64,000 nt of DNA. Source: Sulfitobacter sp. S190. GTDB taxonomy: Bacteria > Pseudomonadota > Alphaproteobacteria > Rhodobacterales > Rhodobacteraceae. Numbering within the stretch: position 1 is the stretch's first letter; each line of letters begins with the position of its first letter. A model generated the notes under the pieces. The model saw nothing but the letters and a program-made list of their open reading frames with translations. It did not search any database and was not told where the DNA came from. Below are positions 3,424 through 11,549 of this stretch, piece by piece. The stretch spans positions 2,542,001-2,606,000 of the forward strand of contig NZ_CP081120.1 in NCBI RefSeq assembly GCF_025141935.1, given 5' to 3'. The translations under genes were made by a program, and so were the position numbers.

Positions 3424-4242
3424 ATGGCAGACCTGCTGACACTCGAAAATCTGGGCAATCTGGTGATGCTTTGCTTTTTGCAAGCGGTGCTGGGCTTCGA
3501 CAACCTGCTATATATCTCGATCGAAAGCCAACGCGCGCCGGTGGCCCAGCAGGCCGCCGTGCGCAAATGGGGCATCATCCTGGCCGTGGCCCTGCGCATC
3601 GTGCTGCTGTTCGTGATGATCCGCCTGATCGACGCCATGGCCGAGCCGTTCTTCATCCTGAACTGGGAAGGCGTGCTTACCGGCGGCGTCAATTTCGCCA
3701 CGCTGGTGTTCATCCTCGGCGGGGCCTTCATCATGTATACCGCCGTCAAGGAAATCGGGCACATGCTGGCGATCGAACATCTGGATACGGACATCGAGGC
3801 GAAATCCGGCAAATCGGCCGCCAAGGTGGTGGGGCTTATCGTGCTGATGAACCTGATCTTCTCGTTCGATTCCGTGCTCTCGGCGCTGGCGATCACGGAT
3901 GTGTTCGTGCTGCTGGCCACCGCGATCATCCTGTCGGGTCTGGCGATGCTGCTGCTGGCCGAACGGGTGACGCAGTTTCTCGAGGCCAACCGCATGTACG
4001 AGGTGCTGGGCCTGTTCATCCTGCTGATCGTCGGCATCGTGCTGCTGGGCGAAGCGGGACAGGCCGCCGCCCACGCGATGCACGATCCGGAACTCGCCCT
4101 GCGCTTTTTTGGTTATGAAGTTGTACCGATGTCGAAAACGACGTTCTACTTCAGCGTCGTCGTGCTGGTGTTGGTCGAAGTCATCCAGTCGGGCTACACC
4201 CGCAAACTCAACGCGCAGCGCCGCACGGGCCAGCGCCACTAG
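3424..4242 (+). CDS. terC: TerC-family integral membrane protein
   Basis: A 272-residue polytopic inner-membrane protein of the TerC family, implicated in tellurite resistance and, in several bacteria, Mn2+ export or metalation of exported proteins. The two diagnostic intramembrane acidic motifs are present: GFDNLLYISI near residue 25 and FSFDSVLSALAI near 150. I count about seven hydrophobic segments. AGGGGAC lies just upstream of ATG 3424. It heads a plus-strand series leading to XpaC- and TelA-like genes, which are known Ter-system partners. Transport substrate is not readable from sequence. Confidence 0.9.
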   Translation: MADLLTLENLGNLVMLCFLQAVLGFDNLLYISIESQRAPVAQQAAVRKWGIILAVALRIVLLFVMIRLIDAMAEPFFILNWEGVLTGGVNFATLVFILGGAFIMYTAVKEIGHMLAIEHLDTDIEAKSGKSAAKVVGLIVLMNLIFSFDSVLSALAITDVFVLLATAIILSGLAMLLLAERVTQFLEANRMYEVLGLFILLIVGIVLLGEAGQAAAHAMHDPELALRFFGYEVVPMSKTTFYFSVVVLVLVEVIQSGYTRKLNAQRRTGQRH

Positions 4243-4309
4243 AAACACGGGTGTCGGCTGCGTATGTTAGGCTGACACGCGCGCCGTGGGGCGCAAGTAA
4301 CGAGGGACC

Positions 4310-4399
4310 ATGGGACAAACACCGTTTCGCAAGATCTCATACGTGGCGCTGATCATCGTGCTGATCGGCGTCTCCTCCGGCTGGATCGGAGGGCTTTGA
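4310..4399 (+). CDS. 29-residue single-span membrane peptide
   Basis: Small reading frame encoding MGQTPFRKISY followed by a hydrophobic span (VALIIVLIGVSS) and a GWIGGL end. A GAGGGA ribosome-binding site sits at 4302-4307, just before ATG 4310. Its stop (4397-4399) lies inside the ribosome-binding region of the next gene, which suggests coupled translation. Basic residues before the span predict an N-in, C-out orientation. It fills the gap between terC and the xpaC-like gene. I do not recognise a named family; the good start signal, spacing and amphipathic design make it a probable real gene. Confidence 0.6.
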   Translation: MGQTPFRKISYVALIIVLIGVSSGWIGGL

Positions 4400-4401
4400 G
4401 C

Positions 4402-5313
4402 GTGGCAAAACGGTTTGGCGGCAAATACAGCCCCGAGGGCGATACGGCCCAAGGCACGCCGCCCCCGGTGCCCGGCGCGCCGCGTGGCCGCGCGCGGGTC
4501 ACCGTCGATCCCGCAGGGGCGCGCGCCAATATGCTGTTTGTGCCCGCCGTGATCCTTGTCGCGACCAGTGTGCTGGGGGCCGGATCGGCCATCGGCATGG
4601 CGTCGGGGCTTCTGGGCGCGCTGGCGCTGACCAGTGCGGCATGGCTGTTGCGCGGGGGCCTGCGCGCCGAAGCGGCCTTTGCGGCGCGCAAAACCGCCCG
4701 CCGTCCCGCCATTCCGCGCAAACTCTTTGCCGCCGTGCTCAGCGGCGTGGGCGCGACCCTCGCCGTGGGCGCACACACGGGTTTCGCAAATCCGCTCTCT
4801 GCCGTGATCTACGGGCTCATCGCGGGCGGGTTGCATCTGGCGGCCTTCGGGCTCGACCCGATGCGCTCCAAGGGGATGGACGGCGTCGATACCTTCCAGC
4901 AGGACCGCGTCGCCCGCGTGGTGGACGAAGCCGAAAAACACCTCACGACCATGCGCCAAACCATCGAGCGCGCCCGCGACCGCGAAGCCACCGGCAGGCT
5001 GGAGCAATTCGTGCAAACCGCACGTGACCTGATCCAGACCGTCGAGGAAGACCCCCGCGATCTGACCGCCGCGCGCAAGTATCTGGGGGTCTACCTACAG
5101 GGCGCCCGCGATGCGACGGCCAAATTCGCCGACATCTACGCGCGCTCCCGCGATCCGCAGGCCAAGGCCGATTACCTCGCGCTGCTGGACGATCTCGACC
5201 AGAATTTTGCCGCCCGTAACCGTAAATCGCTGCTCGCCGACCGCAGCGATCTGACCGTTGAAATCGACGTGCTGCGCGAGCGGCTGTCACGTGAAGGGGT
5301 GCGGCTGGACTAG
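4402..5313 (+). CDS. XpaC-like (5-bromo-4-chloroindolyl phosphate hydrolysis) protein
   Basis: A 303-residue protein with an N-terminal basic/proline segment, two or three hydrophobic spans between residues about 35 and 155, and a charged helical C-terminal half (residues 160-300) predicted as coiled-coil-like. This layout and its position immediately upstream of telA identify it as XpaC-like. XpaC-TelA pairs are conserved in Firmicutes and Proteobacteria and linked to toxic-anion resistance; the biochemical function is unknown. I chose GTG 4402 because GGAGGG (4388-4393) is 8 bases upstream; TTG 4396 is possible but only 2 bases away. Confidence 0.78.
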   Translation: MAKRFGGKYSPEGDTAQGTPPPVPGAPRGRARVTVDPAGARANMLFVPAVILVATSVLGAGSAIGMASGLLGALALTSAAWLLRGGLRAEAAFAARKTARRPAIPRKLFAAVLSGVGATLAVGAHTGFANPLSAVIYGLIAGGLHLAAFGLDPMRSKGMDGVDTFQQDRVARVVDEAEKHLTTMRQTIERARDREATGRLEQFVQTARDLIQTVEEDPRDLTAARKYLGVYLQGARDATAKFADIYARSRDPQAKADYLALLDDLDQNFAARNRKSLLADRSDLTVEIDVLRERLSREGVRLD

Positions 5314-5346
5314 CGCGCGCCAACCAGAAACAGGGAACACCACATC

Positions 5347-6525
5347 ATGTCCGATACCGTCCGTCAAAAGGCCACCCAGTCGCTCGCATTGGTCGAAGAG
5401 GTCAACGCCGTCGTGCTGCCCGAACCCCAACAAGCCAATGAGGTGGTCGCCCTCGACGACGCCACGCCCGCCCAAAGCGCCGAAATCCGCGCCCGCATGG
5501 ACGAGCTGGACATGGACGACACCCAGTCCATCATCGGCTTCGGCTCTGCCGCACAGGCCGAACTGCAGGAAATCAGCCAGTCGATGCTGGCGGATGTGCG
5601 CAACAAGGATGTCGGCCCCGCCGGCGACAGCCTGCGCAACATCGTGACCACCATCCGCGGCTTTTCGGTCTCCGAACTCGACGTGCGCCGCAAACAGAGC
5701 TGGTGGGAAAAACTGCTGGGCAAGGCCGCGCCTTTCGCGAAATTCACCGCCAAGTTCGAAAAGGTGCAAGGCCAGATCGACAAGATCACGGACAACCTGC
5801 TTAGCCACGAACACACGCTGCTCAAGGACATCAAATCGCTCGACATGCTCTACGAAAAGACGCTGCAGTTCTACGATGAACTGGCGCTCTACATCGCCGC
5901 GGGCGAGGCCAAGCTGGCCGAGATCGACGCCACCGCGATCCCCGCGAAAGAGGCCGAAGTCAACGCCGCCCCCGAGGATGATCAGGTCATGAAAGCGCAG
6001 GAACTGCGCGATCTGCGTGCCGCGCGGGACGATCTGGAACGCCGTGTGCACGATCTCAAACTCACCCGTCAGGTCACGATGCAATCGCTGCCCTCCATCC
6101 GGCTGGTGCAGGAAAACGACAAGTCGCTGGTGACCAAGATCAACTCGACACTCGTCAACACCGTACCGCTTTGGGAAACCCAACTGGCGCAGGCGGTGAC
6201 GATCCAGCGCTCCGCCGAAGCGGCCGGTGCCGTGCGCGAAGCCAACGATCTGACCAACGAACTGCTGACCTTGAACGCGCGCAACCTGCGCGAAAGCAAC
6301 AAGGTGATCCGACAGGAAATGGAGCGCGGTGTCTTCGACATCGAAGCGGTGCGCGCCGCCAACGCCGATCTGATCGGCACGATCGAGGAATCGCTGCAGA
6401 TCGCCGACGAGGGCAAAGCCAAACGCGCCGCCGCCGAGAAAGAGCTGCAGGAGATGGAAAGCAAGCTGCGCGACACGCTCGCTGCCGCCAAGTCGGGCGC
6501 AACATCCGCCCCCGCCGGTAGCTGA
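5347..6525 (+). CDS. telA: TelA/KlaA-family toxic anion resistance protein
   Basis: A 392-residue, soluble, almost wholly alpha-helical protein of the TelA family, whose members are associated with tellurite and other toxic-anion or envelope-stress resistance. Features fitting the family are the central segment WWEKLLGKAAPFAKFTAKFE, the long heptad-rich helices (residues 150-260), and the C-terminal helical region with EANDLTNELL. No signal peptide or membrane span. It lies 33 bases after the XpaC-like gene and 3 bases before the DUF2927 gene, so it is almost certainly co-transcribed. How TelA works is not established. Confidence 0.88.
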   Translation: MSDTVRQKATQSLALVEEVNAVVLPEPQQANEVVALDDATPAQSAEIRARMDELDMDDTQSIIGFGSAAQAELQEISQSMLADVRNKDVGPAGDSLRNIVTTIRGFSVSELDVRRKQSWWEKLLGKAAPFAKFTAKFEKVQGQIDKITDNLLSHEHTLLKDIKSLDMLYEKTLQFYDELALYIAAGEAKLAEIDATAIPAKEAEVNAAPEDDQVMKAQELRDLRAARDDLERRVHDLKLTRQVTMQSLPSIRLVQENDKSLVTKINSTLVNTVPLWETQLAQAVTIQRSAEAAGAVREANDLTNELLTLNARNLRESNKVIRQEMERGVFDIEAVRAANADLIGTIEESLQIADEGKAKRAAAEKELQEMESKLRDTLAAAKSGATSAPAGS

Positions 6526-6528
6526 GCC

Positions 6529-7506
6529 ATGCGGCGCGGCGGCACAGCCATCGGCCGGAGCAGCAGGGCGCTGGTGGCGCTCTGCGCCCTGACGCTTGGC
6601 GCCTGCGCGCTGATGGAGCCGCCGGTCGATCCGGTTCTCAAACCCGTGGCGCGCCCCGCCGAACGCCGCCCCGCGCCCGCGCCGATCATCGTCGCCCAAC
6701 CCACATCACAAGAAAGCGCAGCCCTACGCAGCTATCTCAACGAGGTGCAGCGCGCCCAGCTGAGCCAGGGCCTGCTGCGCCGCGACGGGGGCGGCACCGA
6801 CGCGCCCTTCACCTCCGCGATGCTGGCGCGCAATTTCGAACAGATCGCGTTTTTCAATGAATACGACGGCTCCTTCTCGGGGCGCGGCGGGGCCAGCCCG
6901 ATGCGGCGCTGGGAAAGCCCCGTGCGCATGCAGATCATCTTCGGCGCGGGCGTGCCCCCGTCCCAACGCGCCCGCGACAGCGCCAACATCGCCACCTACG
7001 CCGCACGGCTGGGCCGCGTCACGGGCCACCCGGTCGCCGTCGCCAACAACCCCAATTTCGTGGTCATCGTGGCCAGCGAGGACGACCGCGCCGCCGCCCT
7101 GTCCGAAGCGGTGGCCCGCGTGCCCGGCATTTCCGCCAGCAGCCTCGAGCCGCTCGCGCGCATGCGGCGTGATACCTATTGCGTCGTCGCCGCCTATGCC
7201 GCCGGATCGGGCGCCAATGTCTATACAGCCGCTGTCGCCGTGATCCGCGCCGAAAACCCCGAACTTCTGCGCCTGTCGTGCATCCACGAAGAACTGGCGC
7301 AGGGCATGGGGCTGGCCAACGACAGCCCCGAGGCGCGGCCCTCCATCTTCAACGACGACGATGAATTCGCCCTGCTGACGCGCCACGACGAGTTGCTGCT
7401 CAAGATGCTCTACGACGACCGCCTGCGCCCCGGCCTGAGCGCCGACGAAGCGCGCCCCACCGTCCGCGCCATCGCCTCCGAACTTCTCGATACAGGGCCC
7501 GTCTGA
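6529..7506 (+). CDS. DUF2927-domain lipoprotein
   Basis: A 325-residue exported protein. The N-terminal signal ends in a lipobox LGAC with Cys26 as the acylation site, so a lipoprotein is predicted. The C-terminal half (about residues 210-300) carries the DUF2927 signature, including CIHEELAQGMGLANDSP and LLLKMLYDDRLRPG. The HEELAQ motif looks like a degenerate HExxH metal site in which the second His is replaced by Gln. Function is unknown. It follows telA by 3 bases, linking a periplasmic or outer-membrane lipoprotein to the cytoplasmic TelA/SPFH genes. Confidence 0.85.
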   Translation: MRRGGTAIGRSSRALVALCALTLGACALMEPPVDPVLKPVARPAERRPAPAPIIVAQPTSQESAALRSYLNEVQRAQLSQGLLRRDGGGTDAPFTSAMLARNFEQIAFFNEYDGSFSGRGGASPMRRWESPVRMQIIFGAGVPPSQRARDSANIATYAARLGRVTGHPVAVANNPNFVVIVASEDDRAAALSEAVARVPGISASSLEPLARMRRDTYCVVAAYAAGSGANVYTAAVAVIRAENPELLRLSCIHEELAQGMGLANDSPEARPSIFNDDDEFALLTRHDELLLKMLYDDRLRPGLSADEARPTVRAIASELLDTGPV

Positions 7507-7575
7507 CCGCGCCGCTTGCACGCGCACGGCCCTTTGCCTACCCTTTCCTCCGACACCCAGACCAAAGGACACCCC

Positions 7576-8700
7576 ATGGGCATTTTTGACTTCCTCTCTG
7601 GTGAATTCATCGACGTCATCCACTGGACGGACGACACCCGCGATACGCTTGTCTGGCGGTTCGAACGCGAAGGCCACGCCATCAAATACGGCGCCAAGCT
7701 CACGGTGCGCGAAGGTCAGGCGGCGGTCTTTGTGCACGAAGGCCAGCTTGCGGATGTGTTCACGCCCGGGCTCTACATGCTCGAAACCAACAATATGCCG
7801 ATCATGACGACCCTGCAACATTGGGATCACGGCTTCAAAAGCCCGTTCAAATCGGAAATCTATTTCGTCAACACCACCCGCTTCAATGATCTCAAATGGG
7901 GCACCAAGAACCCCGTGATCGTGCGCGACCCCGAATTCGGGCCCGTGCGGCTGCGGGCCTTCGGCACCTACAGCGTGCGGGTCAGCGACCCCGCGCTGTT
8001 CCTGCGCGAAATCGTCGGCACCGACGGCGAATTCACAATGGACGAAATCAGCTACCAGATCCGCAACATCATCGTGCAGGAATTCTCGCGCACCATCGCG
8101 CGCGCGCAGATCCCGGTGCTGGACATGGCCGCCAATACCCGCGAACTGGGCCAACTGGTGGGCGGTGAGATCGCGGGCCAGCTGGCCGAATACGGTCTGG
8201 CGATGCCCGAACTCTATATCGAGAACATCTCGCTGCCCCCCGCCGTGGAAGAGGTGCTGGACAAGCGCTCGTCAATGGGTGTGATCGGCAATCTCAACGA
8301 ATATATGCAGTTTCAGGCCGCCGAGGCATTGGGCCGCGACGGGGCCGGTGCGGCCGCGATCCAGACGGGGCTGGGCGCCGGGCTGGGGATGCAGATCGGC
8401 GCGCAGGCCGCGCAGGGCGGGCCGTGGGGCGCGCGTCCGCAGATGCAGGCCGCGGCGGCACCGGCAGGGCACCTGCCCCCTCCGCCCCCGCCGGTCGAAC
8501 ACGTCTGGCACATCGCCGTCAGCGGCCAGACCAGCGGCCCGTTTTCCAAGGCCCGCCTTGGCCGCATGGCCGCCGAGGGGGAGCTGTCGCGCGAAACCTA
8601 TGTCTGGACACCAGGACAGGACGGCTGGATGAAGGCCGAAGACGTCGCGGAGCTTGCACAGCTCTTCACCGTTCTGCCGCCGCCGCCGCCGGGCAGCTGA
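7576..8700 (+). CDS. SPFH-domain protein with C-terminal GYF_2 domain
   Basis: A 374-residue protein. Residues about 20-260 form an SPFH (band-7-like) domain of the YdjI/virion-core-like class: it begins GIFDFLSGEFIDVIHW and includes VREGQAAVFVHEGQL and a helical ELGQLVGGEIAGQLAEYGL segment. After a Pro-rich linker the last 65 residues form a GYF_2 (DUF4339) domain (VWHIAVSGQTSGPFSKARLG ... TYVWTPGQDGWMKAEDV). The YdjI homologue of Bacillus is a membrane-domain scaffold for the phage-shock protein PspA. ATG 7576 begins the conserved MGIFDF; a further upstream ATG gives a non-conserved extension. Confidence 0.87.
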   Translation: MGIFDFLSGEFIDVIHWTDDTRDTLVWRFEREGHAIKYGAKLTVREGQAAVFVHEGQLADVFTPGLYMLETNNMPIMTTLQHWDHGFKSPFKSEIYFVNTTRFNDLKWGTKNPVIVRDPEFGPVRLRAFGTYSVRVSDPALFLREIVGTDGEFTMDEISYQIRNIIVQEFSRTIARAQIPVLDMAANTRELGQLVGGEIAGQLAEYGLAMPELYIENISLPPAVEEVLDKRSSMGVIGNLNEYMQFQAAEALGRDGAGAAAIQTGLGAGLGMQIGAQAAQGGPWGARPQMQAAAAPAGHLPPPPPPVEHVWHIAVSGQTSGPFSKARLGRMAAEGELSRETYVWTPGQDGWMKAEDVAELAQLFTVLPPPPPGS

Positions 8701-8704
8701 GCAC

Positions 8705-9127
8705 ATGCGCCGCGGCCTGGTCTCTGCCCTGCACTGGGGCGCGTTCTTTCTGGTGCTGACGATGGTCAAGGGCGGTGTGTCGCACCCGTGGGTTCTGGCG
8801 CTGTTTGTCGCACTCATCGCGGCATGGGGCGCGCTGACACTCCGGCGCGGGATGCAGGCGCGACCGGGCCCGAAACTCTCCGCCCCCCTGCGTCAGGCCT
8901 ACCCGTGGATGCACCGCGCCCTGCATCTGCTGCTGATCCTGACCGCCATCGCCATCGCCGCGCGTCTGGCAGGGCGCAGCCTCCCGCTGCTGGATGCCTG
9001 GACGCTGCTGTTGGTGACACTGGCGGCAGGCACCTTTCACGGACTTTTCCATGTCTGGCGGCACATGGCGCTTTACGACAACGCGCTGCACCTGATCACG
9101 CCGCGCTGGATGCACAAATGGCTCTGA
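8705..9127 (+). CDS. Four-helix b561-like membrane protein (first of tandem pair)
   Basis: A 140-residue inner-membrane protein with four predicted spans and histidines in the positions expected of a di-haem cytochrome b561-type bundle: LHWG in span 1, WMHRALHLLL in span 3 and FHGLFHVWRH in span 4. It shares a cytoplasmic-loop motif RPGPKL and the ending FHxWRHxxLxDNAL with the following gene, so the two are tandem paralogues. Starts 4 bases after the SPFH stop. Haem binding is inferred from His spacing only; a non-haem membrane protein is possible. Confidence 0.7.
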   Translation: MRRGLVSALHWGAFFLVLTMVKGGVSHPWVLALFVALIAAWGALTLRRGMQARPGPKLSAPLRQAYPWMHRALHLLLILTAIAIAARLAGRSLPLLDAWTLLLVTLAAGTFHGLFHVWRHMALYDNALHLITPRWMHKWL

Positions 9128-9690
9128 AACCATCCGCCCTGACGCGGCTGCGGGCGCGGCTGCCGCACCCGCGTACCCGGCTGAAATGGCTGCACGGCGT
9201 GATGATCCCGCTGTTTGCGTGGTTCGTGCTGGTGACCCCCGATATGGTGGTGCCGATGGGAAAAGGCTGGTTCGCGCTGCATTCAAATCTGGCGCTGGTG
9301 TTCGTGTCGCTGTGCCTGTTGTGGACGGCAGGTCTGATGCGGCGTGGGCTGGCCTCGCGGCCCGGACCCAAGCTGCAGGGCTGGGCCCGCAGGCTGCACC
9401 GGCCCTTGCACCTGACAATCATCTGGGGGCTGTTCGTGGTGGCCGTGGGCGGCTTTCTTCTGGGGCTCAGCTCGACCGTGATGTTGCGGGCGGGCACGTG
9501 GCTGCCCATCGCGCCACCGATGGGCTGGCGGGCGGCCAACGACCTGATCGGCACGCTGCACATCGCACAATTTTACCTGCTGGGCCTTGTGATCGTGGGG
9601 CATGCGGGGTTTCATATCTGGCGTCACGTCCGGCTGGGCGACAACGCGTTGCGCATCATGGCCCCCAAGGCGCTGCACCGCTTTTTGTGA
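9118..9690 (+). CDS. Cytochrome b561-like membrane protein (second of tandem pair)
   Basis: A 190-residue four-span protein with His residues in or next to the spans (KWLHGVM, FALHSNLAL, RPLHLTIIWGL, GHAGFHIWRH), consistent with cytochrome b/b6-type haem ligation. ATG 9118 overlaps the previous gene by 10 bases, and the frames share the motif RPGPKL and the FHIWRH...DNALRIM end. Compared with its neighbour it has a longer third-fourth loop. It probably moves electrons across or within the inner membrane, but the partner and substrate are not evident. Confidence 0.72.
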   Translation: MALKPSALTRLRARLPHPRTRLKWLHGVMIPLFAWFVLVTPDMVVPMGKGWFALHSNLALVFVSLCLLWTAGLMRRGLASRPGPKLQGWARRLHRPLHLTIIWGLFVVAVGGFLLGLSSTVMLRAGTWLPIAPPMGWRAANDLIGTLHIAQFYLLGLVIVGHAGFHIWRHVRLGDNALRIMAPKALHRFL

Positions 9691-9762
9691 CCGACCCCTT
9701 GACCGCCGCGACCGCGGCAACACCCTTGAACCCCGACACCGGCCCATCGCCAAGGATCCGCT

Positions 9763-10875
9763 TTGCCCGCTTCTGCCCCCCCCACCACCATTCTGCAAGA
9801 ACACCGGTTTCCCTGTGACACCTGCGGCTCTGACCTGCGCTATGATCCGCAAACGGGCCACCTGCAATGCGACCACTGCGGCAATACCCAAACCATCGCA
9901 AGCCCCTGGGCCGCCCCCCACCAGATCGCCGAAATCGACCTGCGCCGCGGGCTGGCCAAAGATCTCGCACTGGCCGAAATGGAAGAGACCCGCGTCAGCA
10001 AATGCCCCAACTGCGCGGCCGAGGTGGAATTCGACCCCGACAGCCAATCCACCGAATGCCCCTTTTGCGCCACGCCGGTCGTCATCGACAGCGGGGTGCA
10101 CCGGCACATCAAGCCACGCGGCGTGATGCCCTTCGGCCTGCCCGAAGAAACCGCGCGCGCGGCCATGAACGACTGGCTGGGGGGCCTGTGGTTCGCGCCC
10201 AACGGTCTGCAACAATACGCCCGCAAAGGCCGCCGGATGGAAGGGATATACGTCCCCTACTGGACCTTCGATGCCCAGACCGATACCCGCTACCGCGGCG
10301 AACGCGGCACGGTCTACTACGAAACCCGCACCGTCATGCGCGATGGCAAACGCCAGCAGGTGCGCGTGCCCAAAGTGCGCTGGCGGGGCGTATCGGGACG
10401 CGTTTCGCGGTTCTTCGACGATGTGCTGGTGCTGGCCTCCCGCTCGCTGCCCAAACGCTACACCGATGCGCTGGGGCCGTGGGACATGGCCGATCTGTCG
10501 CCCTATGCGCCCGAATACCTCGCCGGATTTCGCGCCGAAGGCTACACCGTGGGGCTCGAAGAGGGCTTTGACGAGGCCAAGGTCCACATGGATGCGATGA
10601 TCCGGCGTGACGTCACCTTTGACATCGGCGGCGACCGCCAGCGCATCCACGCGATGGATGTGGACATGTCCGCCATGACCTTCAAACACGTGCTGCTGCC
10701 GGTCTGGCTCGCGGCGTACAAGTACCGTGGCAAAAGCTACCGCTTCGTGGTGAACGGCCAATCCGGGCGCGTGCAGGGCGAACGCCCGTTCTCGGCCATC
10801 AAGATAACGCTGGCGGTGATCGCCGGCCTGATCCTCGCCGCCATCGCCGGCTATATCTACGCAGTGAACCAATGA
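9763..10875 (+). CDS. Double zinc-ribbon membrane-anchored protein
   Basis: A 370-residue protein with two N-terminal zinc ribbons (Cys18/21 with Cys36/39; Cys81/84 with Cys99/102), a central beta-rich region (residues 115-340) and a single C-terminal span (about 345-365, IKITLAVIAGLILAAIAGYI). It is often annotated as TFIIB-type zinc finger or primosomal-protein-N'-like, but no helicase motifs are present. Bacillus YdjG/YdjH, partners of the SPFH protein YdjI, have a comparable ribbon-plus-span design. The start is TTG 9763 preceded by AAGGA; it is 72 bases after the b561-like gene. Confidence 0.75.
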   Translation: MPASAPPTTILQEHRFPCDTCGSDLRYDPQTGHLQCDHCGNTQTIASPWAAPHQIAEIDLRRGLAKDLALAEMEETRVSKCPNCAAEVEFDPDSQSTECPFCATPVVIDSGVHRHIKPRGVMPFGLPEETARAAMNDWLGGLWFAPNGLQQYARKGRRMEGIYVPYWTFDAQTDTRYRGERGTVYYETRTVMRDGKRQQVRVPKVRWRGVSGRVSRFFDDVLVLASRSLPKRYTDALGPWDMADLSPYAPEYLAGFRAEGYTVGLEEGFDEAKVHMDAMIRRDVTFDIGGDRQRIHAMDVDMSAMTFKHVLLPVWLAAYKYRGKSYRFVVNGQSGRVQGERPFSAIKITLAVIAGLILAAIAGYIYAVNQ

Positions 10876-11549
10876 CCCAGCTTGATACCTTGTACCAGAT
10901 CATGACCGCCCGCCATTCGTGCCGCGCCTTCCGGCCCGATCCCGTCTCCCGGACGGTGCTCCAACAGATCGTGCAGACCGCACAGCGCGCCCCGTCGTGG
11001 TGCAACGCGCAGCCGTGGCGGTTGAGCCTGACCGAAGCGGAGGGCACCGAGCGGTTGCGCCGCAAACTCGCGGCCGCCGCCGCCGAAGGCACCCCGCCGA
11101 CCCCCGATCTCGACTGGCCCACAGGCTACAGCGGCGCGTACGCCGAACGGCGGCGCACCTGCGGCTTTCAGCTCTACGAGGCGGTGGGCATTGACCGGTC
11201 GGACCGGGCCGGACGACAGGCCCAGATGCTGCGCAACTACGCGCTGTTCGATGCGCCCCACGTGGCCATCGTGCACAGCCCCGCCGAGCTTGGCCCCTAC
11301 GGCGCGATGGATTGCGGCGGCTTTGTCACCGCCTTCACACTCGCGGCCACGGCGGCGGGTGTGGCGAGCATCCCGCAAGCCGCGATCGCCGCCTACGCGC
11401 CGCTCTTGCGTACCGAGCTGGGCATCGGCGACGACCGCCTGATCCTTTGCGCCATCTCGCTGGGCTACGCCGATACCGACCACCCCGCCAACGGCTTTCG
11501 GACCCACCGCGCCGATCCCGCCGATGTCGTCGATTGGGTCACCGCATGA
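10872..11549 (+). CDS. Nitroreductase-family flavoprotein
   Basis: A 225-residue FMN-dependent oxidoreductase fold. The N-terminus [15 protein letters not shown] and [12 protein letters not shown] are the FMN-phosphate and ring-contacting motifs of the family; [13 protein letters not shown] and the final ISLGYAD complete it. The physiological substrate (nitroaromatic, quinone or other) cannot be told. ATG 10872 overlaps the zinc-ribbon stop (ATGA), so it is translationally coupled to the preceding stress-type genes, and it is coupled in the same way to dtd. Confidence 0.88.

Follow-up and report, generated by a model that had tools for sequence, protein, structure and literature searches.

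Background

Two stress-protection systems that are known separately elsewhere appear to be joined, together with an overlooked tiny membrane protein, at one locus of Sulfitobacter sp. S190, making it a testable candidate for membrane defense. The locus lies in a stretch of 64,000 nucleotides (contig NZ_CP081120.1, positions 2,542,001 to 2,606,000), referred to below as the window. One of the two is the pspA-ydjGHI set of Bacillus subtilis, in which the membrane foci of the SPFH protein YdjI reportedly depend on YdjG/H and YdjI binds PspA in two-hybrid assays (PMC8581546). The other is the XpaC-TelA (YaaN) pair of Firmicutes, such as Listeria lmo1966-lmo1967. Passages of a Listeria study state that the XpaC-TelA genes were up modestly (log2 ~0.6) in an exposure that induced the Psp response and cite a heightened sensitivity of an lmo1967 mutant to nisin and tellurite (PMC12791056). 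Elsewhere, xpaC was reportedly up 7-fold in an Enterococcus faecium liaR mutant (PMC10269926), a review listed telA of Rhodobacter sphaeroides among the tellurite determinants (PMC6955997), and a Paracoccus paper recorded only that TelA is expressed (PMC11962581). The main text of Ravi 2024 (PMC11237479), searched by term, contained band-7 and zinc ribbon and had no TelA, TerC or SPFH. No open-license paper was found that linked TelA, XpaC and SPFH, or a toxic anion resistance protein and SPFH.

A sequence-only reading of the window had proposed that TerC, XpaC, TelA, a DUF2927 lipoprotein, an SPFH-GYF scaffold, two b561-like proteins and an anchored double zinc-ribbon protein form one inner-membrane stress complex, which reaches from the cytoplasm to the lipoprotein layer and has a possible redox branch. 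To our knowledge, TelA and XpaC are long-standing names without a mechanism. A genetic tie to an SPFH/zinc-ribbon platform would bring both into the field of membrane repair with a concrete list of partners.

Organization of the locus

The run occupies positions 3424-11549 of the window, in a host genome of 3.97 Mb. All genes are on the plus strand, in the order terC, a 29-codon open reading frame (ORF), xpaC, telA, the DUF2927 gene, the SPFH-GYF gene, mem1, mem2, the double zinc-ribbon gene and a nitroreductase gene. The closest named proteins to two products of the locus were mostly from Sulfitobacter. The order given by the sequence-only reading was real, as was the tight spacing from the end of xpaC onward, although the small ORF (4310-4399) and the nitroreductase gene overlapping the 3' end had been overlooked. 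Gaps ranged from -10 to 72 nucleotides (nt): terC to the small ORF, 67 nt; small ORF to xpaC, 2; xpaC to telA, 33; telA to DUF2927, 3; DUF2927 to SPFH, 69; SPFH to mem1, 4; a 10-nt overlap of mem1 and mem2; mem2 to the zinc-ribbon gene, 72; and a 4-nt overlap of the latter with the nitroreductase gene. The Pfam scan covered nine proteins of the run and applied the family cut-offs. The five proteins that we propose as the core are as follows.

4310..4399, plus strand: small protein of 29 residues with a single transmembrane (TM) segment; its stop lies 2 nt ahead of the xpaC start
4402..5313, plus strand: XpaC-like protein (PF10112, 4.6e-27, over cut-off); GTG start at 4402, two TM-like segments
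5347..6525, plus strand: TelA, soluble and helical (PF05816, 1e-107, over cut-off); no TM-like segment
7576..8700, plus strand: SPFH protein with C-terminal GYF_2 (Band_7_1 2.5e-101, GYF_2 1.5e-20); no TM-like segment
9763..10875, plus strand: double zinc-ribbon protein with four CxxC knuckles, a beta-rich domain and a C-terminal TM segment

With pspA-ydjGHI the locus shares an SPFH/band-7 protein that lacks a TM segment. It differs in that the SPFH protein terminates in GYF_2 instead of a zinc ribbon, in that XpaC-TelA and the small TM peptide are extra, and in that the host genome gave no match to PspA (PF04012). At E 0.1 none of the nine scanned proteins matched the TPM domain of YdjH, the rest of the genome not having been searched for it. 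The Bacillus system to which the sequence-only reading pointed is built around PspA, and the parallel is not supported in that form: PspA is not found in the host, and no more than 11 of the 61 family genomes scanned had it over cut-off, so the locus would correspond not to YdjGHI-PspA but to a PspA-independent variant. In the two Firmicutes loci compared, xpaC and telA are likewise adjacent with xpaC first, and no SPFH or zinc-ribbon gene is listed alongside. One of them, from the clostridium Vescimonas (L254:6158-8564), has the order XpaC-TelA-TPM, TPM being also the domain of YdjH. TelA is common to the window and to the tellurite locus of Rhodobacter sphaeroides, which belongs to the same bacterial order as the host. 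Ter stress systems share TerC (PF03741, 1.3e-34), yet here it is facultative, and neither TerB, TerD nor TerZ was among the nine proteins scanned, the genome not having been searched for them.

Conservation of the core set in the family

The comparison drew on a family set (99 TelA loci examined), 16 TelA-negative family genomes, a genus set, a class-wide set and a named-genome set. The family sample comprised 149 genomes, one per genus except for the window's genus (two), and TelA matched in 133 of them, including the host. Of the 132 other positive genomes, 99 were examined, chosen mainly for contig room; the remaining 33 are outside the counts. Neighboring genes were called by tblastn (E 1e-3) in fetched stretches around telA. 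Beside telA were xpaC in 97 of the 99 loci, always upstream, DUF2927 in 93, and SPFH and the zinc-ribbon gene in 92 each. The five large genes occurred together in 87 loci, with order and strand unchanged in 85; the zinc-ribbon gene was moved or inverted in L073 and L089. In the window, the adjacent PF10112 and PF05816 proteins are both over cut-off.

The seven family loci without SPFH are the same seven that lack the zinc-ribbon gene. In one of them (L076) the contig ends 219 bases past telA; in the six other genomes (6/6) the pair was present elsewhere, still neighboring and in the same order. Two loci lacked an adjacent xpaC, and both genomes had XpaC elsewhere. XpaC was therefore found in all 99 TelA-positive genomes examined, and 98 of them had the pair of SPFH and zinc-ribbon genes (98/98 resolvable, L076 being at a contig end). 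Among the 16 TelA-negative genomes, XpaC was over cut-off in none, with one weak match, Band_7_1 was over cut-off in two (clearly in G177 and weakly, at 27.9 bits, in G117), and the zinc-ribbon protein was present in three. The three genomes have the first gene of this kind close to a contig start, at 110, 495 and 240 bases (in G177 the SPFH gene starts at base 110 and the zinc-ribbon gene at 1360), so these occurrences may reflect assembly breaks. Fisher tests of co-presence were extreme, although they ignore phylogeny and the XpaC row scores adjacency (97/99). Distance correlations among TelA, SPFH, zinc-ribbon protein and XpaC were 0.81-0.90; they were run without control genes and are not counted as evidence.

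XpaC, TelA, SPFH and the zinc-ribbon protein thus appear to be kept or lost almost as a whole among relatives. Gene order, joint presence and absence, and survival of the set upon rearrangement all point to one set and give strong comparative support to the view of XpaC-TelA and an SPFH/zinc-ribbon pair of the YdjGHI kind as a single system, which is the best-supported reading. The putative core, namely XpaC, TelA, SPFH-GYF, the double-zinc-ribbon membrane protein and the 29-residue peptide, is smaller than had been proposed.

As a separate observation, a second protein that looks XpaC-like lies between rluB and xpaC in eight loci (L084 and seven others).

A small protein associated with XpaC

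We looked in 98 rows (97 loci and the window) for an ATG-started ORF, 20-50 codons long and TM-like, that ends near the xpaC start. It was found in 85, a few of which may be chance ORFs (e.g. L104). The same test applied to control genes gave 0/100 for telA, 0/94 for DUF2927, 1/93 for SPFH, 4/91 for the zinc-ribbon gene and 1/27 for the nitroreductase gene. When GTG and TTG starts were allowed, 11 of the 13 misses gained a small ORF, L109 and L149 being the exceptions, the controls having been scored for ATG starts only. In the genus set, for which 36 genomes had TelA, the ORF was found in 30 of 30 loci, window included, and always encoded 29 residues. The pooled ratio of nonsynonymous to synonymous polymorphism (pN/pS) was 0.37 in the coding frame, compared with 1.02 and 2.19 in the two alternative frames, the pairs not being independent.

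In the named genomes, where a tighter search interval was used, the ORF preceded xpaC in 18 of 22 loci of the DUF2927 type and 28 of 48 others. The corresponding controls for the two types were 0/21 and 0/52 for telA, 0/16 and 0/30 for SPFH, 1/10 and 0/23 for the zinc-ribbon gene, and 6/460 and 12/1140 for random ATGs. In two genomes in which xpaC had relocated out of the operon, the small ORF was beside xpaC in both. For a Paracoccus plasmid cassette without XpaC at telA, no small gene was listed in a gene table that is incomplete. A protein-database search with a gammaproteobacterial counterpart returned three proteins, the named one being called 'hypothetical'.

The substitution pattern shows purifying selection on the peptide, which we take to be an obligate partner of XpaC. 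The microprotein is a small, testable handle: it travels with xpaC, is under purifying selection and, at 29 residues, is easily overlooked by gene finders.

Domains and structure models

The description of the 9763-10875 product as an anchored double zinc-ribbon protein held as to its features, eight cysteines in four CxxC knuckles and one C-terminal TM-like segment, but no zinc-ribbon Pfam model passed its cut-off. When 37 sequences, among them that of the window, were aligned, six of the eight cysteines were invariant and two nearly so. The structure model weakly resembled YpeB, a likeness published for YdjG, and a Foldseek search with it gave no matches at E 0.001. The TelA model is a long helical hairpin of modest confidence (mean predicted local distance difference test score, pLDDT, 70.7), and its comparison with the PspA/Vipp1/ESCRT-III fold yielded helical matches only, among the matches listed. 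In the SPFH protein, the poly-proline stretches around the GYF domain are conserved, PPPP occurring in 88 of the 93 tails and in as many of the 93 linkers, which suggested that the GYF domains could act as a zipper. The proline-rich N-terminus of XpaC was also considered as a GYF ligand and rejected as a conserved feature. PP is present there in 31 of the 98 family rows and, among loci with SPFH that are not of the DUF2927 type, in 2 of 27.

Occurrence outside the family

TelA is rare class-wide (17 of 191 genomes, 15 over cut-off). Of 14 class-wide loci, three from other families had xpaC, telA, SPFH and zinc ribbon adjacent without DUF2927, and one from the window's own family had the whole set. 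The remaining ten had TelA and XpaC (four), TelA alone (five) or neither (one), as scored by profile models of this analysis, in which one zinc-ribbon alignment row was a single residue and was still included.

The named-genome set was the best 80 of 548 confirmed hits, mainly from alpha- and gammaproteobacteria and many cut by contig ends; it overlaps the class-wide set, L163 and L203 apparently being one genome. Among these best 80, 20 loci had the four genes, 11 the four and DUF2927, nine xpaC, telA, DUF2927 and SPFH, 24 xpaC and telA only, and 16 other combinations. Named loci that are not of the DUF2927 type and had more than 2.6 kb downstream (n=50) contained SPFH in 28 cases and SPFH with zinc ribbon in 23, and in 17 of 30 cases the telA-SPFH gap was -1 to 3 nt. 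Other families of alpha- and gammaproteobacteria have the same four genes side by side as well. A quick tree of 66 TelA rows, with fragments removed, the DUF2927 type reduced to 12 rows and 62 rows scored, required six changes in SPFH presence, at least four forced by well-supported branches, which indicates repeated gain or loss of the SPFH/zinc-ribbon pair.

Five Competibacteraceae loci (L175, L177, L181, L186, L237) kept telA-SPFH and gave no zinc-ribbon match; next in line in L181, L186 and L237 is what looks like a BON-LysM protein. Three alphaproteobacterial loci (L157, L162, L170) have another layout, in which telA is followed by a gene-sized space of ~1.4-1.6 kb and then xpaC; in L162 this space holds a predicted lipoprotein. 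SPFH-zinc ribbon pairs with no TelA listed beside them were seen on plasmids of Vibrio coralliilyticus (L256:5001-7154), near a TIR-domain gene, and Tsukamurella (L259:4501-6908).

Proposed function and alternative explanations

We consider that the locus probably encodes a PspA-independent inner-membrane stress platform (probability roughly 0.6), the function being suggested by analogy with the work in Firmicutes. By sequence comparison, the small TM peptide, XpaC, TelA, SPFH-GYF and the zinc-ribbon membrane protein are a conserved set. The C-terminal helix of the zinc-ribbon protein would tether the soluble SPFH protein to the membrane, as YdjG/YdjH do for YdjI, and SPFH oligomers would form a scaffold, perhaps zipped by GYF domains binding the flanking poly-proline stretches. 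XpaC and the small peptide may serve as a membrane anchor or sensor that recruits TelA, whose long helical hairpin would occupy the place of Bacillus PspA. Upon damage by oxyanions such as tellurite or by membrane-active peptides, the platform would stabilize or repair the membrane, and DUF2927 would be a periplasm-facing lipoprotein added in this family. A more far-reaching proposal, which we put at slightly below even odds, gives the place of PspA to TelA, XpaC and a single-helix microprotein that is obligate and hardly annotated at all. These would be the partners of an SPFH-zinc-ribbon platform resembling YdjI/YdjG, and the whole would be an envelope-repair machine independent of PspA, present or absent as a unit in bacteria of the Rhodobacteraceae type and met with repeatedly in alpha- and gammaproteobacteria. 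If true, bacteria without PspA would have an alternative envelope-stress device.

Several observations weigh against a joint system and favor the view that XpaC-TelA and SPFH-zinc ribbon are independent stress systems, neighbors only through the conserved gene order of the family. The flanks are held in place as well (rluB in 84 and tadA in 79 of the 99 loci), so synteny alone proves little; XpaC-TelA occurs without the SPFH pair nearby in two Firmicutes and many gammaproteobacteria, and the Vibrio and Tsukamurella plasmids carry the pair without XpaC-TelA nearby. We nevertheless regard independence as unlikely. In the 20 family loci in which rluB is missing, reversed or far, 14 still hold the five-gene core, distant families also have the four genes side by side, both halves are retained when the operon is split, and TelA-negative genomes are mostly without both.

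That the locus is chiefly a Ter-type tellurite or metal resistance operon, in which TerC and TelA export or handle toxic oxyanions, would agree with the presence of both genes in the window and with the listing of Rhodobacter sphaeroides telA cited above, but it is improbable: TerC is next to xpaC in no more than 18 of the 99 family loci, neither TelA nor SPFH has a TM-like segment and the zinc-ribbon protein has one, and TelA in 133 of 149 family genomes would fit a housekeeping stress role better than acquired resistance. Least credible, and in our judgment very improbable, is the composite of the sequence-only reading, which would extend from the cytoplasm to the lipoprotein layer and include a redox branch. 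Its components (the DUF2927 lipoprotein, the paralogous b561-like pair and the nitroreductase gene) are all in the window run and DUF2927 is frequent in the family, yet mem1 is found in 18, mem2 in 16 and the nitroreductase gene in 26 of the 99 loci. The four-gene cassettes of other families have no DUF2927, and 9 of the 16 TelA-negative genomes contain it, so DUF2927 is not tied to the set and the reach to the lipoprotein layer would be a lineage add-on.

Accessory genes

DUF2927, TerC, the b561-like pair and the nitroreductase are, by their distribution, lineage-specific or facultative accessories of the proposed PspA-independent platform.

3424..4242, plus strand: TerC-family membrane protein, facultative neighbor (over cut-off)
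6529..7506, plus strand: DUF2927 predicted lipoprotein, a lineage-specific insertion in the cassette (PF11150, 7.1e-64, over cut-off)
8705..9127, plus strand: mem1, small multi-TM protein, facultative; no family match, paralogue of mem2
9118..9690, plus strand: mem2, multi-TM protein, facultative; PF01292 (cytochrome b561) at 26.0 bits, below the 30.1 cut-off
10872..11549, plus strand: nitroreductase-family protein, facultative (PF00881, 3.3e-27, over cut-off)

TerC, which had been counted as part of the set, was beside xpaC in 12 of 30 genus loci and in 4 of the 20 loci without rluB directly upstream; no riboswitch was found upstream of terC. Only mem2 resembles b561 in its own right. It shares 34% identity with mem1 over 152 columns (E 3.9e-15), and both, where present, always lie between SPFH and zinc ribbon.

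No open-license paper was found on DUF2927. In 38 sequences its lipobox cysteine, C26, is nearly invariant, C218 and C251 are invariant, and so is the pattern E254-E255-x-x-Q258-x-x-G261-L262-x-N264-D265, except that N264 is nearly so. HExxHxxGxxH is the metzincin motif. Because the DUF2927 pattern has this spacing but no zinc ligands, a zinc-less metzincin was considered; it was rejected, as no Pfam peptidase matched and a PDB sequence search was empty.

Downstream, a gene for what we take to be a PfkB-type sugar kinase, named from a look at the sequence, lies 3' of the zinc-ribbon gene and before dtd in 41 loci (among L060-L159), and in a Paracoccus record a carbohydrate kinase is annotated after the zinc-ribbon gene.

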